NCBI GenBank assembly: GCA_002946415.1
Contig: NJPS01000044.1
Coordinates: 124,001 to 188,000, forward strand
Direction: 5' to 3'
Length of the DNA: 64,000 nt
Origin: Rutstroemia sp. NJR-2017a BVV2
Taxonomy: Eukaryota; Ascomycota; Leotiomycetes; Helotiales; Rutstroemiaceae
How positions within the stretch are numbered: position 1 is the first letter of the stretch; every line of letters begins with the position of its first letter. Below are positions 15,381 to 60,537 of the stretch, piece by piece. The position numbers and the translations under genes were made by a program. The notes beneath the pieces are model-generated. The model was not told the DNA's origin. It did not search any database and saw only the letters and a list, made by a program, of their open reading frames with translations.

Positions 15381-18300
15381 ATGGCAGCCGAGGCTCTTCC
15401 AGAACGACCAGCTCCTCTTGAGCTTCCACCAATCCCAGCACCCGTCAAAGAATTCATCCCGTACCTTTCCCAAAACCCCGATAAATCCATTAGCTCCCTT
15501 GTCGAACCCTTCAAAGCATACGAATCAGAACTTCGCAAATTCTACGCTCAACAACCGGATCATGAAGTTGTCAAAGATGGAGCGGTCAACTTGGTACCAC
15601 TCTTCTCTGGCCATGAAGGTGAACTCAAGATGCGTGCTCGAGACCTTGCATCCGAGACCCAAGAACAGAAAGATAAATATATTATGCCATTGAGAGATAA
15701 CGATCGCAGACCAAATGGCTCACCTGCAGTCGTGGGGTCATTAAAAGATTTCCAGACGAATTTCAATCTTTTCTCGGAATCCTCGCTGGCTGATCTGGAC
15801 TGGAACAATGTCGTTGCGGCTGGTAGTGCGGTTACGACTTCACTTATTCCACTTCCGGAAAAATGGTCGGGCAGCAAGAGAGCTATGAGAGAGTACTACC
15901 ATGAACATCTCGCACCTGCATCAGATGTTGATCTCTTCCTTTACGGCCTTACGGAGGAAGAGGGTCTGGAGAAGATCAAGCAGATTGAAACCAAGATCAA
16001 AGACGCCATTCTGCACGAAACAACAACAATCCGTACCAAGAATGCTATCACCATTGCGAGTCAACATCCTACTCGCCATGTGCAGATTGTTCTTAGACTT
16101 TACGATTCCATCTCGCAGATCATCACCGGATTCGACGTCGATTGTTCTTGCGCAGCCTATGATGGATCGCAAGTTTATCTCAGTCCAAGAGCTGTCGGAG
16201 CATTTGTTACTCAGTGTAATACCATTGACTTGACCAGACGTTCTCCGAGTTACGAAAATCGCTTGAGCAAGTACAGTCATCGAGGGTTTGAGGTCCATTG
16301 GCCAATGTTGGATCGATCAAGGATTGATCCTACTATTTTCGAGCGTTCTTTTGGAAGAACAGAGGGCTTGGCAAGGTTGTTGATCTTGGAGAAGTTACCG
16401 AAACAAGCTGTAAGTTTTCTTTCGGATCATAAATTCGTAGACGTGCTGGTACTGACGCAGAGGAACGCAGGATCGAGAGAATTACATGGACCAGCGACGC
16501 AAGGAACGTGGCAGGCCCTCCTTGAACCGAAGCTTCCGCAATCAACGCAGATTGTATGGTAATCTCAAAGACGAAGAAGAGGACGAGGTGAGAGGCTTAA
16601 GACCAAATATCCTATCTCACTGGCTATGTGTACTAACATAATTTATAGGTCGCTGACTGGGCTGAACAGGACGATATCGCCAACTACCACACTATGACTG
16701 TTCCCTATGGACCGAAATACAATGCGGCAAAGATCAACCGATTACTCTATGCCAAGGATCTTCTACTCAATGCGGAGTGGAGCCAGCCCGAAGATCGCGA
16801 CGTCTATCTACATCGCCATCCATGTTTCTTTGGGACCGCCGAAGAGGTGATCCAGGACTGTTGTGGTTACTGTCCAGTCCCGACTACAGACGAGGAAAAA
16901 GAGGTCGCTGAGAAAGAGAGCAAAACTAACGTCTCTGGTACTCTGAAGTTTATCGTTGATGATCCAGGACGACAAGAGATTGGTAGTTTCAACCCTATCA
17001 CCGATGATGAATGGACAACTATGAGTTATGTTGGCGATACTGCGCGTCTGTGTCAAGCTATTGTAGACGGTGATCTCGAGCATGTACAAGACTGGTGTTC
17101 TCAAGAAGGAGTCGATGTTAACTGTCGAGATTTTACTGGACGCACTCCTCTACATCTGGCTGCTTTGGCTTCCACGCCAGAGATCGTCAAATGTCTTGTA
17201 GACAACGGTGCAAGAATGATCGCCAGATTGGTTGATGGCAGGACTGCTTTGCACATCGCAGCTGCGAGAGGGAATTTGGAGATGATTCGTATCCTGATGG
17301 ATAAGAGTTTGGCCAATGAAGAGGAAGAAGATCAGAAAGAGGAAAGTCGACTCGATGCTAAGAGAAGAGCTGCGGGTATCACACCAGATATTGAAAATGA
17401 ATCTGACAGTGCTTCGGAGATTACGCTTGACAGCGATCAGGAAGCTTCTGACGCTATGACGATGGGTAGTTTCGTCAAGATTCCCAAACAAAGCGAGGAT
17501 GAAGGGGCTAAGGATATTGTAAGTGTTTTTCTTTTGGCATGCAGCTTTTGTTTGCTAACTAATATTTCTAGGCTGATGTACTCGAAGATTCCGAAGAAGA
17601 TCCTGATGTTTATGATATCAATGTCATTGCTTGGGACTATGGCCTCTCCCCACTTCATCTGGCAATCTTGAACGGACATGTTGATGCCATCGAATTACTT
17701 GTTTCAGAATACGGCGCCGATGTTCTTCTTCCTGTAAAACTCGTCCAGCCTGGTACGACGAACTTTAAAGGTGCTGTTATGACCTTGGTTCTCGCTATGT
17801 CGCTTCCGAATGATCAAGCAAAGGAAGTTGTCAAACTTCTGCTTAAGTTGGGTGCGACTTGTAGCCAATCTGATAATAACCACATCACTGCGCTTCATTA
17901 CATTGTCTCGCAGGATAACAGCGATTTAATCGACGTACTATTCGAGAACGATGGTCCCATGGCCAATAGAGTGCTCAATAAACTGGGATTGGTTCATGGA
18001 TGGAGTAAACAGGATACACCACTGACCACATCAGTTGTGTCGCGCCACGACGAGATGGCCTCAAAACTCCTAAAGCTTGGAGCTAAACCGGAGATTCAAT
18101 TCGATGATTGGGTCAAGAACTACATTGCTACACATCCATGGTCCAAGAATATGTCCACAGAGGAAACTCAAAAACAATTCCGGCAGACTGTCATGCAACC
18201 AATCTTTGCTGCAATTTGTCAAGAGTCGCCCGCCATCATAAAAGAGCTTCTTGCACATGGCGCGGATCCTCAAACGCTGACGACTTCTGCTTGGGAAGTC

Positions 18301-20908
18301 ATCAACAATCCTCCAAACACGAGATATGTATGGCAATCACCTGAATCAGTACTGGATGTTATTCGCAATAAACTCAAGACCCTCCGGGAATGGAAAGAAC
18401 CTGTATCAACCCATCAGTATTATAATTGGATATGCGGTTATCAATCTTTCGACTATGAGCCGGAAACCCTTAAAGATGCAGACTTCTACACTGAAGGCAC
18501 GACGCCTGGTACTTACCAGCATTGGTACGCCTTACGGAGCTACCAAATAGAGAAAACTCGAAATGCGGAACATCATGAAGTTTACAGAAAGGCCCTTGAG
18601 GACAGAAAGAAAGAGTTGGAAAAGTACAAGAGTAACCGCGAGGCAATTAAAAAGAGTATCAAGTTGCTCGAGGAAACAGAAAAGGACCTTGTCGCAGCTG
18701 GAGCCAAAACTTTCCGCGAACTATACCCAGAGATTGAGATCAAATACGGTCACCAGAATCATGATTACAGTCATGTTCCCCATCAAAGCACCAAACCCCC
18801 TCCGTATCAGGTATCGCAGAACTTCTTAGTTCCAGATCTGAATGAAAGGAAGCGGAAAGGTTACATCAAGTTGTTTGAAGCAGTTTGGAACAACGATCTC
18901 GAGACAGTCAAGGAGATGACATTGCGCCCTTGGAAGTATGAGGACCATGAACAGCGGCCGTTGAAAATCTCTGTCGGGGATGGGCTCCAGTATCAGCCTT
19001 TCTCCATCGCACTCCTCCGTGGTCACTATGATCTTGCTCGAAAGATTGTGGACATCTGTGTTGCGCAATATAACAATTCCGGAGACGACACATTGCAAAA
19101 GACACGTCAGCGATGGGCGATCGATGTTGATGAGGAGGATTCGGAAAATCTTCCCATTTACTCGGAACTGGTCAGTGACAAATTTACCATCGATGCTTTG
19201 GAAGAAGTGGCAAACACCGTCAAGAGCGATGTCTCGCCGCTGCAAATGATAAGCTTTGTATCTATACAAGGCAGATTCATAGATGGAGAAACCCCAGACA
19301 AGGAAAGAACCGATATGGTGGACCCTTTCATGTATGCTGTGGAGAAAGACGACCTAAAAATGCTTAAGTTCCTGCTAGAGCTCGCTACAGAACAGTCTGC
19401 TCTCCTCGCCAAACACGAGGAAGACCAACGATGTTACAATATTCCTCAGAACGTTTTCTACAAAGCTATCGATCTCGGTCGAACCCAGATGCTGGCAGAA
19501 ATGATCAAGTGTTCTGGTTTTGGTATTCCTTGGACTGAACTGACAACCGCGAGTGGAGTTGAGATCAAGACTAAACCAAGATATTACGAGGGTCTGACGA
19601 TTGGTGGAAAGAAGAGAAAGGACTGGGCTGCACCTCCATCGGGTGCTGTGACGAACAATGCCAGTGAGGAAAGTGTGCCGCCTTTGATTCAAGCAGCCCA
19701 AAGAGGCAGCGTGGAATCCGTTGAATGGTTCATGAGTGACGCCCCTATGAGACGATACAAGGAGTTTGCAGAGGCAAACAAGAGCGACATCAGAGTTCGA
19801 TCGTTGGAGAAAGGAAAGGGCTTCGATAAGAGTGTTTCTCAATGGCTAAACACAAAATGTAAGATCCTCTTGAACATTCCTTGGATCCTCTTTAACTAAC
19901 GCTTATTACAGCCGACCTTCTTCTCCATTCAGCGATTCAATACTCTCCGCGGAAGGATGAAGACCCGAATAAACATCTTAACCTTATCAAGCATATCGTT
20001 TCCGTTTCGCCTGAGTCTATGCTCTCTCATAAATCTTCCAACGGATACTCACCTCTTCACTTGGCTGTTAGCAAAAACAATATTCCAATCATCAAATATC
20101 TACTTTCTGTGGGAGCATCACCTCGTTCCCGCGATAAGGCGAACAGGAACATTATCCACACTTTTGTGTCTATTAGTGCGACTGTCCAGAGCGAGCATCA
20201 GAAGCTTGATGAATTCCTCCAACTATTTGATAAGAAAGACGTCGAGGAAATGATGTTGGAGCGATGCAATGATTATCCAAGTGCACTTACTCCTATGGCA
20301 CTGTGGCTGCAATCAAACTATGCGTCCAAACCGGATGTTCTGGAAGTTATGATGAAGTACTCCACGGGCGAGGAATTAGAGATGATCAACGGTGAAGGTG
20401 ATTTGCCTTTGCATGTGGTATGTCCAATCCTTATTCCTCCTCATCGACTTAATCACTAACCTCTTCTTAGTCCATCAAAAAGAATCTCTTGCACATAACC
20501 CCCTTCCTAATATCCCGCAACCCATCACTCATCCACAGGGAATCCGCCACAGGCCGCACACCCCTCGAAATGTCGCACGATAAATACATAGCCACCTTCC
20601 TGGACTCCCCACCTACTGTCACCAACAACTTCAACTACTCCTCGAACAACCTGGCTAGTTTCACGTTGAGCAGCCAGTGGGGAAGCACGGCGCATGATAA
20701 GGCATCGGAGAAACAGAAGACGAGAGGTGTGTGGGAGGAGTGTTTGAGAGTGCAGGGAGAGTTGAAGAGGAAGCGTGAGGGTGATGCTGATGGTGAGGAT
20801 GCAGGAGGAGATAAGAAGACGGAGGGGAAGAGAAGATTGGTTACGCTGTTTGAGGCGAATGAGGTGGCGAGGAGGTTGGCGAATGGGATGAACCATGGGA
20901 GGGGTTAA
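15381..20908 (+). CDS. Large ankyrin-repeat protein with nucleotidyltransferase-like N-terminus
   Basis: A 1748-residue fungal ankyrin protein in six exons: 15381-16409, 16471-16587, 16649-17518, 17572-19858, 19912-20417 and 20471-20908; all joins keep frame. Residues 140-260 carry a pattern like the nucleotidyltransferase fold: AAGSAV (Gly148-Ser149), then DVDLF (Asp182/Asp184), then GFDVDC (Asp252/Asp254). A conserved block with SPRAVGAF and RRSPSYENRLSKY follows. Ankyrin repeats appear in exon 3 (GRTPLHLAALAS, GRTALHIAAARGN), exon 4 (GLSPLHLAILNGH, ITALHYIVSQDN and others) and exon 5 (GYSPLHLAVSKNN). A coiled-coil segment (RKKELEKYKSNREAIKK) lies in exon 4. The first intron has two near acceptors, 16460 and 16470; only the second keeps the frame. 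Function is unknown; the transferase reading is my inference. Confidence 0.88.
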
Positions 20909-27940: not shown

Positions 27941-30350
27941 ATGGTAAGTGGAAACTACATGAGATGGGGTGCTCGCTGAACTCTCCAGACTTCTATAAGT
28001 TACAGTAATGCTGGCACCTCACTTCGTATTCTGACCCTCACCGACGGCGGTGTAAGATGTCTGTCACAGCTTGCCATATTGGAGAATATAATGATACGAT
28101 TAAAGTCAAAGATGGAGTCGAAAGCACCCGAACCATATGAATGTTTTGAACTTATTGCTGGGAGTGGATGGGGTGCTATTATCGCCATTATGCTTGGGAG
28201 AATAAGAATGGTGAGAGATGCATATTGTTATTCATCGGTAAATTCTCACTATTCAAGACGGTTGCAGAATGCAAGGAATGGTTTCAGGGCCTTCACATGA
28301 CCCAGCCTAGCCTCACTTCGCGATTGCTCTTGCAAAAGGAAATCGTTGGAGCAGAACATATAGCGACAAAGTTCCGCCAGCTCGTAGAGCTCAAAATCGA
28401 CGACCCAAACGCTATATTCCATGATGAAAGATCTGGTGTAAAGACCATGGTTCTGATCGGCGATATAGATAATCCCGGTGCTCCACGGAGATTCTGTTCC
28501 TGGAGGGGAAAAACGAGAGCAGATCTTGTGGAATCGCCGGTGTGGCAGGTAGCTCAGGCTGTGATATGTGACCCTGCAAGCGATGCCCCGCTAACTATTT
28601 CACATGTGTCTGATAAAAAAGCCTTCCGATGTATGACTGCAGGATTTATGGACCACAATCCAACACCCGAGGCTTTGGCAGAGGCATGGGATCAATGGGG
28701 AATAGATGCCGTGCGCATCATTATCAACCTCGCGGATGGTGACCGATCAGATGCTCTTGACGGTAATCAAAGTCTACCGATCGGTTCTTCGCTCAATCAT
28801 CATCTCAGTATGATGAGACTTAAGTCGACAGGTGCTCTAAGCAGCAGGAGGGACGCAAAGTTGCTCACAGCCCAAAGCCGCGCTTGCGGTTACGTCTACT
28901 TTTACTTCTCGGCCAGGAGTGGTCTAGAAAAGATCTACATGGATGAGTTTGATAAAGGGGCAGATGTTCTTGATAAGACGGCTTTGTACATTACAGAAGC
29001 GGCTGTCATGGATGAGCTCAGCCATTGTGTGGAGGAGTTACACCTCGCAGATTCACCACGAAACAGCGTGGCAAGCCGCGACTGTCCGAAGTCTCTGGCC
29101 TTAGGGATTAACGCACGTCACAATGAGCCACCACCACAATCTTTTATCGGAGAACCCTCAGGTACGCAGTCTGAACAACGCTCGAAGACCAACTACCATC
29201 TATACGATACTCTCTCCGGCGCTCCAAGCAAGTATGAATATCCATTACTCCGTAAACCATCTTGTTAACTGCTGAAATATCATCCAGTCTCGATTCGGAC
29301 GCTTGGTTTCGTGAATTCGAAAACACTAAGGAATTATTTGGGACTGACTACCCTGCTCGAATAAAACTTGCTGTCCTCGACACCGGAATCATCGCCGAAC
29401 ATCCTGGCATCTGTGCCAAAAAATGGAGTCTTAAACAAGACGGGAAACAATTTTATTATGATGCTACTAAAGGCCCATTAAGCATTAACGATTACCATGA
29501 ACCGACCGATGCAGTAGGACACGGCACCCACATTGCCGGCCTCATTCTGGAAACGGCACCGAGCGTCGAGCTTTATGTGATAAGAGTTTTTACTAGTGCG
29601 AACATCAGTCCCCAGGAACAAGCGGACGCTCCAGATGTAGTGGCTCGGGTAAGCTTCCCAGTTCTATTGACGCTTGATGCCCACTCAAAGTGTTGATAGG
29701 CTATTGAATTTGCTTCAGACCCAGACGGGCTCGGCGTGAAAATAATTTCGATGTCTTTCGGCTTCGATCATCAGAACAAGGCAGTCGCGCAGGCTGTAGG
29801 AAAGGCACATAGCCGCCATGTTTTGATGTTTGCAGCCGCATCTAATAGTGGAAATCGATCGGATCTGCCTTATCCAGCTAGGGATCCAAAGGTATTTCTA
29901 GTACATTGTGCTGATGGGAACGGCAATAAATCTATTCGGAACCCGCAGTCGGTCCGTCTCAGAGACAACTTCAGTATCCTGGGCCAGGATGTGCTCTCGA
30001 CCTGGCCAAGTGAGTGCCAAGAACAGGGCATAATTCAACGAAAAGGACTCGGTACATGGAAACGTTCATCGGGAACTTCGATTGCTACCCCTATTCTGGC
30101 TTCTGTCTGCGCGCTTATCTTACAATTCGGGATGAGATGGAAGGGCCTGATTCGTGGCTATGAGCGTTTGGAAACTTGGGCTGGCATCCGGGAAATATTG
30201 CTCGATATGGCAACAGACGATGCCTCCCGGCTTTTTGAATCCGCTGACGGATTTTCTAACGTAGTGCCATGGCGAGTTTTGAACTCTGCATCTCACAATG
30301 ATATCATGCGCTCGAAATTTACGACAGCACTGGCTCGTATTAAAGCTTAA
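27941..30350 (+). CDS. Patatin-like / subtilisin-like (S8) fusion protein, candidate gasdermin-activating protease
   Basis: A 736-residue fusion in five exons: 27941-27943 (ATG only), 27989-28210, 28258-29231, 29288-29648 and 29700-30350; all joins keep frame. Residues 10-75 match the start of fungal patatin-like phospholipases: LTLTDGGVRCLSQLAIL and the helix IIAIMLGRIRM, then TVAECKEWF. The nucleophile elbow G-x-S-x-G reads GSGWG (59-63), with Gly61 in place of Ser, so lipase activity is probably lost. From about 420 a complete subtilase core appears: Asp431 (VLDTG), His478 (GHGTHIAG), Asn569 (AAASNSGN) and Ser647 (SSGTSIATP). No signal peptide, so cytosolic. No NB-ARC or NACHT domain lies between. 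The gene converges on the candidate gasdermin, ending 87 bases from it. Role in cleaving that protein is inference from the HET-Q2/HET-Q1 pair. Confidence 0.85.
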
Positions 30351-30437
30351 CTAATCATCTCGGGTGCATTGTATTTGCACATCTTGCTGCCTGAATTGGC
30401 CGCTTTCACTAGTGGTGCACTAGATCCAGGCAAATCA

Positions 30438-31307
30438 CTACACTGGTTGCAGAACCTTGACAGCAACACCATCGTCATCTTCTGCATCAACAGAACAAAA
30501 TGCATCAACTTTCTCATCTATCGCAAAGTCTTCAAAGCTCAGGCCGGCAACCTCAAAGTCTTCGTCCGCCTCTTCAGAACCTTTTACCGGCTTCTGGGAA
30601 TCTTCAATCTCCTTCCCAGGCCCATCATCGTACAACGCCCCCTTCACGTAGTCTTTACTCCTTACATTGCCCGTCTTACGGTCCAAATACACCACGCGAA
30701 TTCGGTACGCGAAAACAAAGTCGGAAGAGCCCTCGAAACTTTCGGCGTGCTCCTTAGCACGAGTCACCGACCCTTTAGGTCCGATTTGGATAGGCACGCC
30801 AGCTGGCATTCCATCTACACCAGCTTTGCCGGAGAGCTCTACACTTCTCGCGCTTTGCGCTTCCATCGCCGCATTCCGTGCGATTTTGATACCCGTCACC
30901 ATGTAGGCAGTTGATACTTTCAGGTGCTTAGCGAAAAACTCATGCACCGGTGGATGTGCCACGGCCTTCACAATATACTCCTCGTCCGGCTCGATGAAGA
31001 TAGTATCCAAACGGACAGTTCTCAATGTTGTGCCATTCGATCGCGAGAAAGCAATGTCGGCATCACCACCGATTCCAAGAATCGATGCTAGGAATTGAGT
31101 ATACACGCCGAGAGAGAAGCGCTTGTTTTCATTCGAGCTGGTTTGCCAGTTATCTTTGCGCGTTTCGATCTGGGTTGGTAGAGGCTCCAGCGGTTCAGCG
31201 AGGCGTCGAAGTGGTGCTTTTAGGTCTATGAATATTTGGCCCAATTTCATGACGGTGTCGGGCGGGCAGTCGCGGTTTGGCATCAAGAAGTAGGCTCGCT
31301 GTGCCAT
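30438..31307 (-). CDS. Candidate fungal gasdermin (RCD-1/HET-Q1 type), pore-forming cell death executor
   Basis: A 289-residue protein in one exon. I start at ATG 31307 (MAQRAYFLMP); the frame is open five codons further only through a TTG. No signal peptide. The body has alternating strand-like segments and blocks I associate with fungal gasdermin-like proteins: MKLGQIFID (20-28), FLASILGIGGDADIAF (72-87), AYMVTGIKIARNA (134-146), ESFEGSSDFVFAYRIRVV (189-206) and KGALYDD (222-228). From about 229 the protein becomes a disordered, very acidic tail of 60 residues. In HET-Q1 a short C-terminal tail is inhibitory and is removed by the neighbouring subtilase; the lengths here fit. The convergent neighbour encodes an S8 protease. 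The family call is from memory of the pattern and needs a profile or structure search. Confidence 0.65.
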   Translation of the reverse strand: MAQRAYFLMPNRDCPPDTVMKLGQIFIDLKAPLRRLAEPLEPLPTQIETRKDNWQTSSNENKRFSLGVYTQFLASILGIGGDADIAFSRSNGTTLRTVRLDTIFIEPDEEYIVKAVAHPPVHEFFAKHLKVSTAYMVTGIKIARNAAMEAQSARSVELSGKAGVDGMPAGVPIQIGPKGSVTRAKEHAESFEGSSDFVFAYRIRVVYLDRKTGNVRSKDYVKGALYDDGPGKEIEDSQKPVKGSEEADEDFEVAGLSFEDFAIDEKVDAFCSVDAEDDDGVAVKVLQPV

Positions 31308-58268: not shown

Positions 58269-60537
58269 ATGTTGTTGCCAGTGTCACACATCGTCCTTGC
58301 CATTGCGGCAATTGTGAATGCTGCTCCATCACCAAACAGGCATGTCTTGCATGAGAAGCGGAATGCGCCGCCTTCGGATTGGGTAAAAGGTGCTCGGATC
58401 GAAGGAAGTGCAATTGTCCCCGTGCGGATTGGCTTAACCCAAACCAATCTCGAGAATGGAGCTGATTTTCTTGAGGAAGTGTAAGTGTTTGATCTAATAT
58501 ATGGTGCCAGGGACATTCAATAACTTGAAGCTAATATCCTTCAGTTCTAACCCCGCCTCCCCTAAGTATGGCCAATATTGGTCAGCCAAGGAAGTTCACG
58601 ACATGTTCGCACCACCAGAGGAGACTTTGAAATCGGTTAAAGCATGGCTTACGTCGTCTGGAATTCATCATTCGAGGATCTCGCATTACGAGAACAAGGG
58701 ATGGTTGGCATTCGATGCATCGGTTGCTGAAGCTGAGAGATTGCTTCTCACTAAGTTTCATGAGCACGAACACAAACACAGCCCGAGTGTCCGCGTCGGA
58801 TGTGACGAGTGAGTATACGGTTTATTGGATTCATGATCGAGCTAACATGATTGCCAGGTACCATGTTCCAGAGCACCTTGCGCCACACATCGACTACATC
58901 ACCCCTGGCGTTAAGCTCACTCCCGTCAAGAAGAGAAGCGTCAAGGTCAAGCGCGGAACACCATACGTCGAGAAGCGATCCAATAGAGTCGTAAAGACGT
59001 ATGAACATCAGAACTACACATGGACTCCACCTGCTGTGGCCAATCTCTCAAGCGACTTGCAAGGTTGCGGCACGAACATGACACCAACTTGTATCAAGGC
59101 GATGTACAAAATCCCAGACGCGACCAAGAAAACACCAGGAAACTCTCTCGGTCTTTATGAGCAGGGAGATTACTTCGCAGAGTCGGATATCGATCTTTTC
59201 TATGCTGAATACGCACCATGGGTCCCGCAAGGAACTTACCCTATTCCAGCACTTATTGACGGAGCCAACTACTCGGTGCCTGCTTATAGCGAGTTGAACG
59301 GTGGCGAAGCTGACATTGATATCGATATGGCGTAAGTGCTGATTCTAAATTATTGGACTATGTTTGTTGACAAGAACAGTTACGCCCTTATCTATCCTCA
59401 AACCGTTACTCTGTACCAAGTCGATGACCAAATTTATGAGCCGGAAGAGGTTGCTACTACGAACTTGTTCAACACCTTCCTTGATGCTCTTGATGGGGTA
59501 AGTGATCCGTGCTGCACGTGCGTTCATAGTCACTGACATCTTCTAGTCGTACTGTAACTACACTGCTTTCAACGAGACTGGAGATAACCCCAACATCGAC
59601 CCTGTCTACCCTGACCCACAACCAGGCGGATGGAACGGTATAACCCAATCCGATCTTGGTCTACTGCGTGTATGCTAACATTCATCCAGGTACACGTCAA
59701 TGCGGTGTCTTCAAACCAACAAACGTCATTTCCGCCTCCTACGGTCAAGCTGAATCCGATCTCCCAATCAACTACTCCAAGCGTCAGTGCAACGAATTCA
59801 TGAAGCTCGGACTCCAAGGTATCTCTATCCTTACCGCATCCGGCGATTACGGTGTTGGATCGTTCCCCGATGACGGAGATGCCAACGGATGTCTGGGTCC
59901 CGAAGGAACAATCTTCAACCCCCAATACCCCGGAAACTGCCCCTACATCACCTCCGTCGGCGGCACCATGCTGTACCCCTACCAGACCGTTCTCGACGCC
60001 GAAAGCGTCATGCACGTCAACCTAAGCGGAACCGCACAAAACTTCACCTCCTCAGGCGGTTTCTCAAATTACTTCCCCCAACCCAAGTACCAGAAAGCCG
60101 CAGTTGCGAAGTACTTCGCCACCGCCAACCTCACCTACCCATACTACTCCGAATTCGAAGTCGACGTCAACACCACCACCGGTCTATATAACCGTATCGG
60201 AAGAGGCTACCCGGATGTTTCCGCCAACGGAGCAGAATTCAGAGCGTATACTAATGGATACGATTACCATTACTATGGATCGAGTTTGGCGTCGCCGCTA
60301 TTCGCTTCGGTGTTGACGCTGATTAATGAGGAGAGATTTGCGGTGGGGAAGGGCCCGGTGGGGTTTGTGAATCCCGTGTTGTATGCGCATCCCGAGGTGC
60401 TGAATGATATTACGAATGGGACAAATGTGGGGTGTGGGAGTGAGGGGTTTAAGGCTGTGAAGGGCTGGGATCCGGCGACGGGTTTGGGGACGCCGAGTTA
60501 TCCGAAGATGAAGAAGTTGTTTTTGTCGTTGCCTTAG
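58269..60537 (+). CDS. Secreted sedolisin-type serine-carboxyl peptidase (S53)
   Basis: An acid tripeptidyl-peptidase-like enzyme of 668 residues in six exons: 58269-58480, 58545-58808, 58858-59331, 59380-59497, 59547-59637 and 59690-60537, all in frame. A signal peptide (MLLPVSHIVLAIAAIVNA) is followed by the pro-kumamolisin prodomain (SPKYGQYWSAKEVHDMFAPP, ISHYENKGWLAFDASV). The catalytic domain shows the Glu-Asp pair in GGEADIDIDMA, the oxyanion Asp in SASYGQAESDLP and the Ser in YGSSLASPLFASV. A calcium site is expected at the end (VKGWDPATGLGTPSYPKM). Several N-glycosylation sites. Such peptidases feed on protein at low pH and are common in plant-pathogenic fungi. Confidence 0.93.

Follow-up and report, generated by a model that had tools for sequence, protein, structure and literature searches.

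Two convergent genes of Rutstroemia sp. NJR-2017a BVV2, one for a subtilase with a patatin-like N-terminus and the other for a small protein with an acidic tail, raise the question of whether they form a protease-gasdermin cell death module and, if so, which part of that module is new. The genes lie towards the middle of the window (the whole stretch of 64,000 nucleotides that was analysed), where the GC content of 0.46-0.50 is unremarkable against the surroundings, and their parts are as follows.

27941..30350, plus strand: gene of a HET-Q2-like (Q2L) protease whose front is a pseudo-patatin, five exons, 736 aa
27941-27943, plus strand: exon 1, the ATG triplet alone
27989..28210, plus strand: exon 2, patatin-like N-terminus with the motif TDGGVRC and a degenerate nucleophile elbow, GSGWG
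28258..29231, plus strand: exon 3, the remaining patatin-like domain (TAGF) and a linker; P0018, from a close relative, is 86% identical
29288..29648, plus strand: exon 4, S8 domain with Asp431 and His478
29700..30350, plus strand: exon 5, S8 domain with Asn569 and Ser647, and the C-terminus; a phase-0 intron (29649-29699) precedes it
30438..31307, minus strand: fungal gasdermin (fGSDM) gene, single exon, 289 aa, ATG at 31307; residues 1 to ~226 are the predicted basic pore-forming domain and ~227-289 the acidic C-terminal tail

A fungal gasdermin gene beside a subtilase gene

The gasdermin gene is an uninterrupted minus-strand frame from 31307 to 30438, whose 289-aa product matched RCD-1-1 in a phmmer search (E 2.5e-5). 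A profile built from this protein and 15 relatives matched RCD-1-1 (E 2.4e-21) and HET-Q1 (E 9.7e-17) in the PDB; with the E limit set to 10 it reached five PDB sequences, none of them a bacterial gasdermin, the group in which gasdermins beside proteases are also known. The AlphaFold model is of middling quality (pLDDT 66, pTM 0.56, most of the tail below 50), and its best match in the fold searches was RCD-1, with HET-Q1 absent from the best 50 matches listed in either search. As a Pfam-A scan at E up to 10 gave zero matches to this protein, its membership rests on the phmmer, PDB profile and fold searches, and by sequence profile and fold it is a member of the fungal gasdermin family of RCD-1 and HET-Q1. 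A scan of viral_contigs for relatives gave 19 pattern matches, with 0 confirmed. The last 63 residues carry a net charge of -16 (pI 4.1) behind a body of 226 residues with a pI of 9.3, the start of the tail being our own choice, 30 residues past the start of the FVFA motif; a basic body with an acidic tail was kept in all of the 18 gasdermin sequences compared.

The five exons of the protease gene, with splice sites picked by eye from the sequence without transcripts, join in frame to give 736 aa. Pfam Peptidase_S8 covers residues 425-699 (E 6.1e-23; score 82 bits, cut-off 21.8), the active site is intact (D431, H478, N569, S647), and a Pfam scan of the whole protein to E 10 returned S8 and Patatin only, with no NB-ARC or NACHT domain. 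The stop codons of the two convergent genes are 87 bases apart. An S8 (or CHAT) domain whose active site is intact and an fGSDM gene within 10 kb are two marks of a Q2L protease, and the gene has both; a third, that the protease cleaves and activates the adjoining gasdermin, is predicted here. The label "cytosolic" for this protein comes from a by-eye reading of its N-terminus.

What the original prediction had read from the letters at this locus is thus borne out: the subtilase core of Asp431, His478, Asn569 and Ser647 by the gene model and Pfam, the convergent neighbour by the stop-to-stop distance, the acidic tail by its charge, and the gasdermin-like 289-residue protein by the very profile and structure searches that had been proposed as a check, which found RCD-1 and HET-Q1 by profile and RCD-1 by fold. 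A model unlike the gasdermin pore-forming fold had been named as grounds for rejection and did not arise, and the placing of Neurospora RCD-1 in the same family holds by both profile and fold. The database matches exclude a chance likeness.

Clustering with proteases and the proposed cell-death module

In the whole genome (43.4 Mb, 79 contigs), which by gene structure and relatives looks like that of a filamentous ascomycete, the gasdermin query found three intact gasdermin genes, namely the window gene, C50:220657-221367 and C26:36601-37329, a count of those found from which more distant members could escape. One more gasdermin-like stretch, C5:1089528-1089818, matched weakly at E 5.8e-4 and contains three stops; it may be a relic or a chance hit and was left uncounted. 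The nearest S8 relatives of the protease in the genome, at C50:232507 and C26:35345, both lie near gasdermin genes: gasdermin and S8 gene are 87 bp apart in the window and ~0.6 kb apart on C26, whereas the C50 protease gene starts ~9-10 kb from its gasdermin, with the S8 part at ~11 kb. All three intact gasdermins therefore have an S8 gene within 12 kb in a genome with 12 S8 loci, for which the chance is ~4e-7 (a rough estimate for evenly placed loci), and the adjacency of gasdermin and protease is not a chance neighbourhood.

The C50 and C26 proteases both have a DUF7580 domain ahead of S8, and a phase-0 intron stands before AI(E/D) at the same place in all three S8 genes (joins picked by hand), the C50 copy being GC-AG. 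A gasdermin tree of 18 rows places the three own gasdermins in separate positions, which speaks for an origin other than recent duplication. An S8 tree of 20 rows, from which the own locus L004 (28 aligned residues) was dropped and six more of the 12 S8 loci were left out, has long branches and leaves the position of the protease's S8 domain undecided. A close relative holds both a gasdermin (P0001, 89% identical) and a patatin-like exon (P0018, 86%). These two come from the same source (JGI) with the same longest contig size, 10,822 bases, and because source and size are equal we infer that they probably stand on one contig; the linkage in neighbouring species that the original prediction had asked for is thus probable in one relative.

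Two of these neighbourhoods deserve a description of their own. On C26, ~33.4-37.5 kb (L030:2450-6459) holds a DUF7580-S8 gene followed ~0.6 kb downstream, on the same strand, by a gene for a 303-aa gasdermin. On C50, HlyIII-type and NACHT-ankyrin genes lie between the gasdermin and the DUF7580-S8 gene (220.5-233.5 kb; L033, L029), a stretch which is possibly a cluster of cell-death genes; the intervening genes count against a plain two-gene module there.

Such pairing is ordinary in kind, as a gasdermin beside an S8 gene is an already known fungal cell-death module: the portion of PMC10197012 that deals with genomic context puts ~80% of fungal gasdermin genes in clusters with protease genes and ~63% with S8 proteases. 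The fGSDM-Q2L clusters of Clave et al. 2022 likewise combine a gasdermin within 10 kb of an S8 gene with a multidomain HET-Q2-type subtilase. In a Podospora two-gene cluster a CHAT protease has been demonstrated to activate its own gasdermin (PMC12881547, in excerpt), and HET-Q1 is shortened by ~5 kDa, likely through a cut at F238 by HET-Q2 (excerpts of PMC12881547 and PMC10989679).

We favour a two-gene regulated cell-death module of this known fGSDM/Q2L type, and put the probability that it works as proposed here at roughly 0.78. The gasdermin would be made full-length and silent, with its ~60-residue acidic tail restraining the basic pore-forming domain, while the cytosolic subtilase would be kept inactive until its N-terminal pseudo-patatin perceives a trigger; candidates are an infection, a non-self partner met through cell fusion, or some host protein or lipid that has been modified. 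The triggered subtilase would then remove the gasdermin tail, and the freed N-terminal part would make pores in the plasma membrane and kill the hyphal compartment. The scheme follows HET-Q2/HET-Q1 and the Podospora CHAT cluster by analogy; that the gasdermin is cleaved, which way the regulation runs, what sets it off and that the pseudo-patatin acts as sensor are all parts that we infer.

The closest characterised counterpart, HET-Q1/HET-Q2 of Podospora anserina, shares the S8 protease and a gasdermin of similar length (278 aa against 289 aa here) and differs in the protease, HET-Q2 having 388 aa against 736 aa here (excerpt of PMC10989679). It differs in arrangement too. The original prediction described HET-Q1 as activated by a neighbouring HET-Q2, which was mistaken in this respect, as the excerpt of PMC12881547 gives het-Q1 and het-Q2 as idiomorphs, that is alternative genes of one locus, and not as neighbours; here both genes adjoin on one contig, so that the locus is no idiomorph in the het-Q sense.

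This difference bears on whether the locus serves allorecognition, as a het locus still in action at which the gasdermin or the protease has incompatible alleles or idiomorphs and death follows when unlike strains fuse, in the manner of het-Q or rcd-1. Both characterised fungal gasdermin systems govern heterokaryon incompatibility (PMC12881547, in excerpt), and the het genes of A. fumigatus include the patatin-like hetC and the CHAT protease hetB (PMC11138114, in excerpt). Such a role would be compatible with the module set out above and would supply its trigger, and we regard it as a reasonable possibility that falls well short of a favoured one, given that the two genes adjoin in one genome, and probably in a relative too, unlike the het-Q idiomorphs.

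Alternatively the gasdermin could act independently of the adjoining protease, as RCD-1 does, with the S8 protein having some other substrate. RCD-1 of Neurospora crassa has the same fold and family as the gasdermin here and is activated when two allelic variants meet, without cleavage (excerpt of PMC12881547). The acidic tail present in 18 of 18 sequences and the clustering of all three intact gasdermins with S8 genes speak against independence, which we consider unlikely.

Integrity of the protease gene

The two-gene module presupposes that the protease is a single working gene, and its 5' end is uncertain because exon 1 is a bare ATG. This short exon would also suit a different gene structure, in which a short patatin-like protein stops at 29268 and a broken S8 remnant follows, that is, two genes or a decaying one; so would the donor of intron 3, GTATGA, which is not the commonest form, and the exon 3 frame of P0018, which likewise continues beyond that position and stops in a similar way. 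Against this, the five exons join in frame with all four S8 catalytic residues intact, the exon 4/5 intron position is common to the two paralogues, and the relative's patatin-like exon has kept 86% identity. From the stop at 29253 to the catalytic Asp the S8 frame offers one TTG and no ATG from which to start, so its translation probably depends on being spliced to the exons before it. A split or decaying gene is therefore decidedly improbable, and we continue with a single protease of 736 aa.

The pseudo-patatin front

The N-terminal part of the protease is a patatin domain by homology and an atypical one in its motifs. Pfam Patatin covers residues 21-127 with 19.4 bits, under the cut-off of 27.7. 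A search with residues 1-410 (7,207 candidates, E 1e-3) gave two matches at E 6e-10, from Xylaria longipes and Daldinia grandis; both carry patatin, NB-ARC and TPR-type Pfam domains, with no S8 in the Pfam list. Identity to the patatin-NB-ARC proteins (PLP-1-like) across the elbow region is 40/80 (P0016) and 40/70 columns (P0017), and these are the nearest patatin domains found. They have their own Ser and Asp in the positions of the patatin dyad, and the front does not: where the relatives have the nucleophile Ser (GTSTG) it has Gly (GSGWG), where they read DAGF it has TAGF, with Thr for Asp, and the oxyanion-type motif LDGGGVRG has become LTDGGVRC. A patatin phospholipase is marked by a Ser-Asp dyad (GxSxG, D-G/A-G) and a score above the Pfam gathering cut-off, neither of which the front has. 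The relative's P0018 also reads TAGF, its fragment stopping short of the elbow. Exon 3 folded alone gave an unusable model (pLDDT 28.5).

From the search and these motifs we read the front as a patatin domain closest to those of NLR (patatin-NB-ARC) proteins whose catalytic dyad is lost, and it is probably no lipase because of that loss. The patatin-like front of the original prediction hence stands as homology, with its dyad lost. That the front is nonetheless an enzyme, adding a lipase effector to the gasdermin pore, is highly improbable, as its kinship with patatin domains of NB-ARC proteins and the need for patatin activity in PLP-1-caused death (PMC12881547, in excerpt) are met by the changed Ser, Asp and oxyanion-type motif, the same Asp loss in P0018 and the sub-threshold Pfam score.

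Most likely the pseudo-patatin would be a sensor or regulator of the protease, the lost dyad being the one ground for this reading. Patatin serves as an NLR effector domain and occurs almost invariably with NB-ARC according to the excerpt of PMC4986451, and A. fumigatus hetC is a patatin-like gene without other NLR parts (excerpt of PMC11138114). One version would make the front an integrated decoy or bait: a protease that activates gasdermins would have acquired, by fusion, an NLR's lipase effector domain whose active site was then lost or already gone, so that whatever binds or attacks the patatin receptors of the cell would also touch the pseudo-patatin and lead to gasdermin pores; we consider this a speculative and rather doubtful proposal.

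Patatin-like proteins whose elbow reads GTGTG in place of GTSTG are encoded elsewhere in this genome, at C53:187659-188051 (L031) and C4:439842-440060 (L032), so the loss of the elbow Ser is not unique to the fusion. The C53 protein was considered as a source of the front (33/72 columns identical, elbow GTGTG) and set aside, the patatin-NB-ARC proteins scoring higher.

How unusual is the front on a protease of this kind? A query reaching from exon 3 into exon 5 gave, among the 7,995 candidates that shared most words, 16 matches at E 1e-5, and DUF7580 is the front in seven of the 16 listed, with no other named front. Such proteins (P0019 of Echria macrotheca and the C50 and C26 paralogues) resemble the present protease in having a C-terminal S8 domain behind another domain and, for the two paralogues, in intron position and in lying near gasdermin genes; they differ in the front itself. 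The original prediction set the patatin-like part against an NLR part; NB-ARC and NACHT are absent here, and the sole named front among these matches is DUF7580 and not an NLR part. Patatin and S8 together occurred in none of the 18 matches listed in the two protein searches, which covered limited protein lengths and relied on exact-word sharing, such that longer or more distant patatin-S8 proteins would escape both; domains were taken as listed and five matches were scanned afresh.

In its excerpted part, PMC10197012 gives 18 architectures for Q2L proteases, most annotated cases having ANK, TPR or WD40 repeats and some being NLRs, so the published fronts given there are TPR, ANK, WD40 and NLR parts, compared with a dyad-less patatin here. 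In the literature searched we found no patatin-S8 protein described next to a gasdermin, and the 18 architectures of Clave et al. 2022 may include one. The side-by-side pairing is a described class (PMC10197012, in excerpt), which leaves the patatin-S8 architecture as the one feature that could be undescribed; of the original suggestion of a possibly undescribed pair there remains a pseudo-patatin front on a gasdermin-linked S8 protease, which is unusual and possibly new.

The control of protease-bearing gasdermin activators is named as open work in the excerpt of PMC12881547, and a protease this compact (736 aa), in which just one front domain can be recognised and one gasdermin adjoins, would be a convenient system in which to study what a front does. 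Here the front is a pseudoenzyme whose active relatives are cell-death effectors, and if the sensor reading is true an NLR effector domain can be reused as a non-catalytic input domain.

Beyond the pair, the frame at 26.4 kb on the protease side has no Pfam match, and the other flank is of housekeeping type, with a UBA-domain ubiquitin-conjugating enzyme at 32.4-33.2 kb and, from 34.5 kb on, a proteasomal ATPase. Further away in the window, by-eye labels mark large frames with ankyrin-like repeats at 16694-19899 (plus strand) and two long frames resembling a sedolisin-type (S53) peptidase at 58715-60537 (plus strand).
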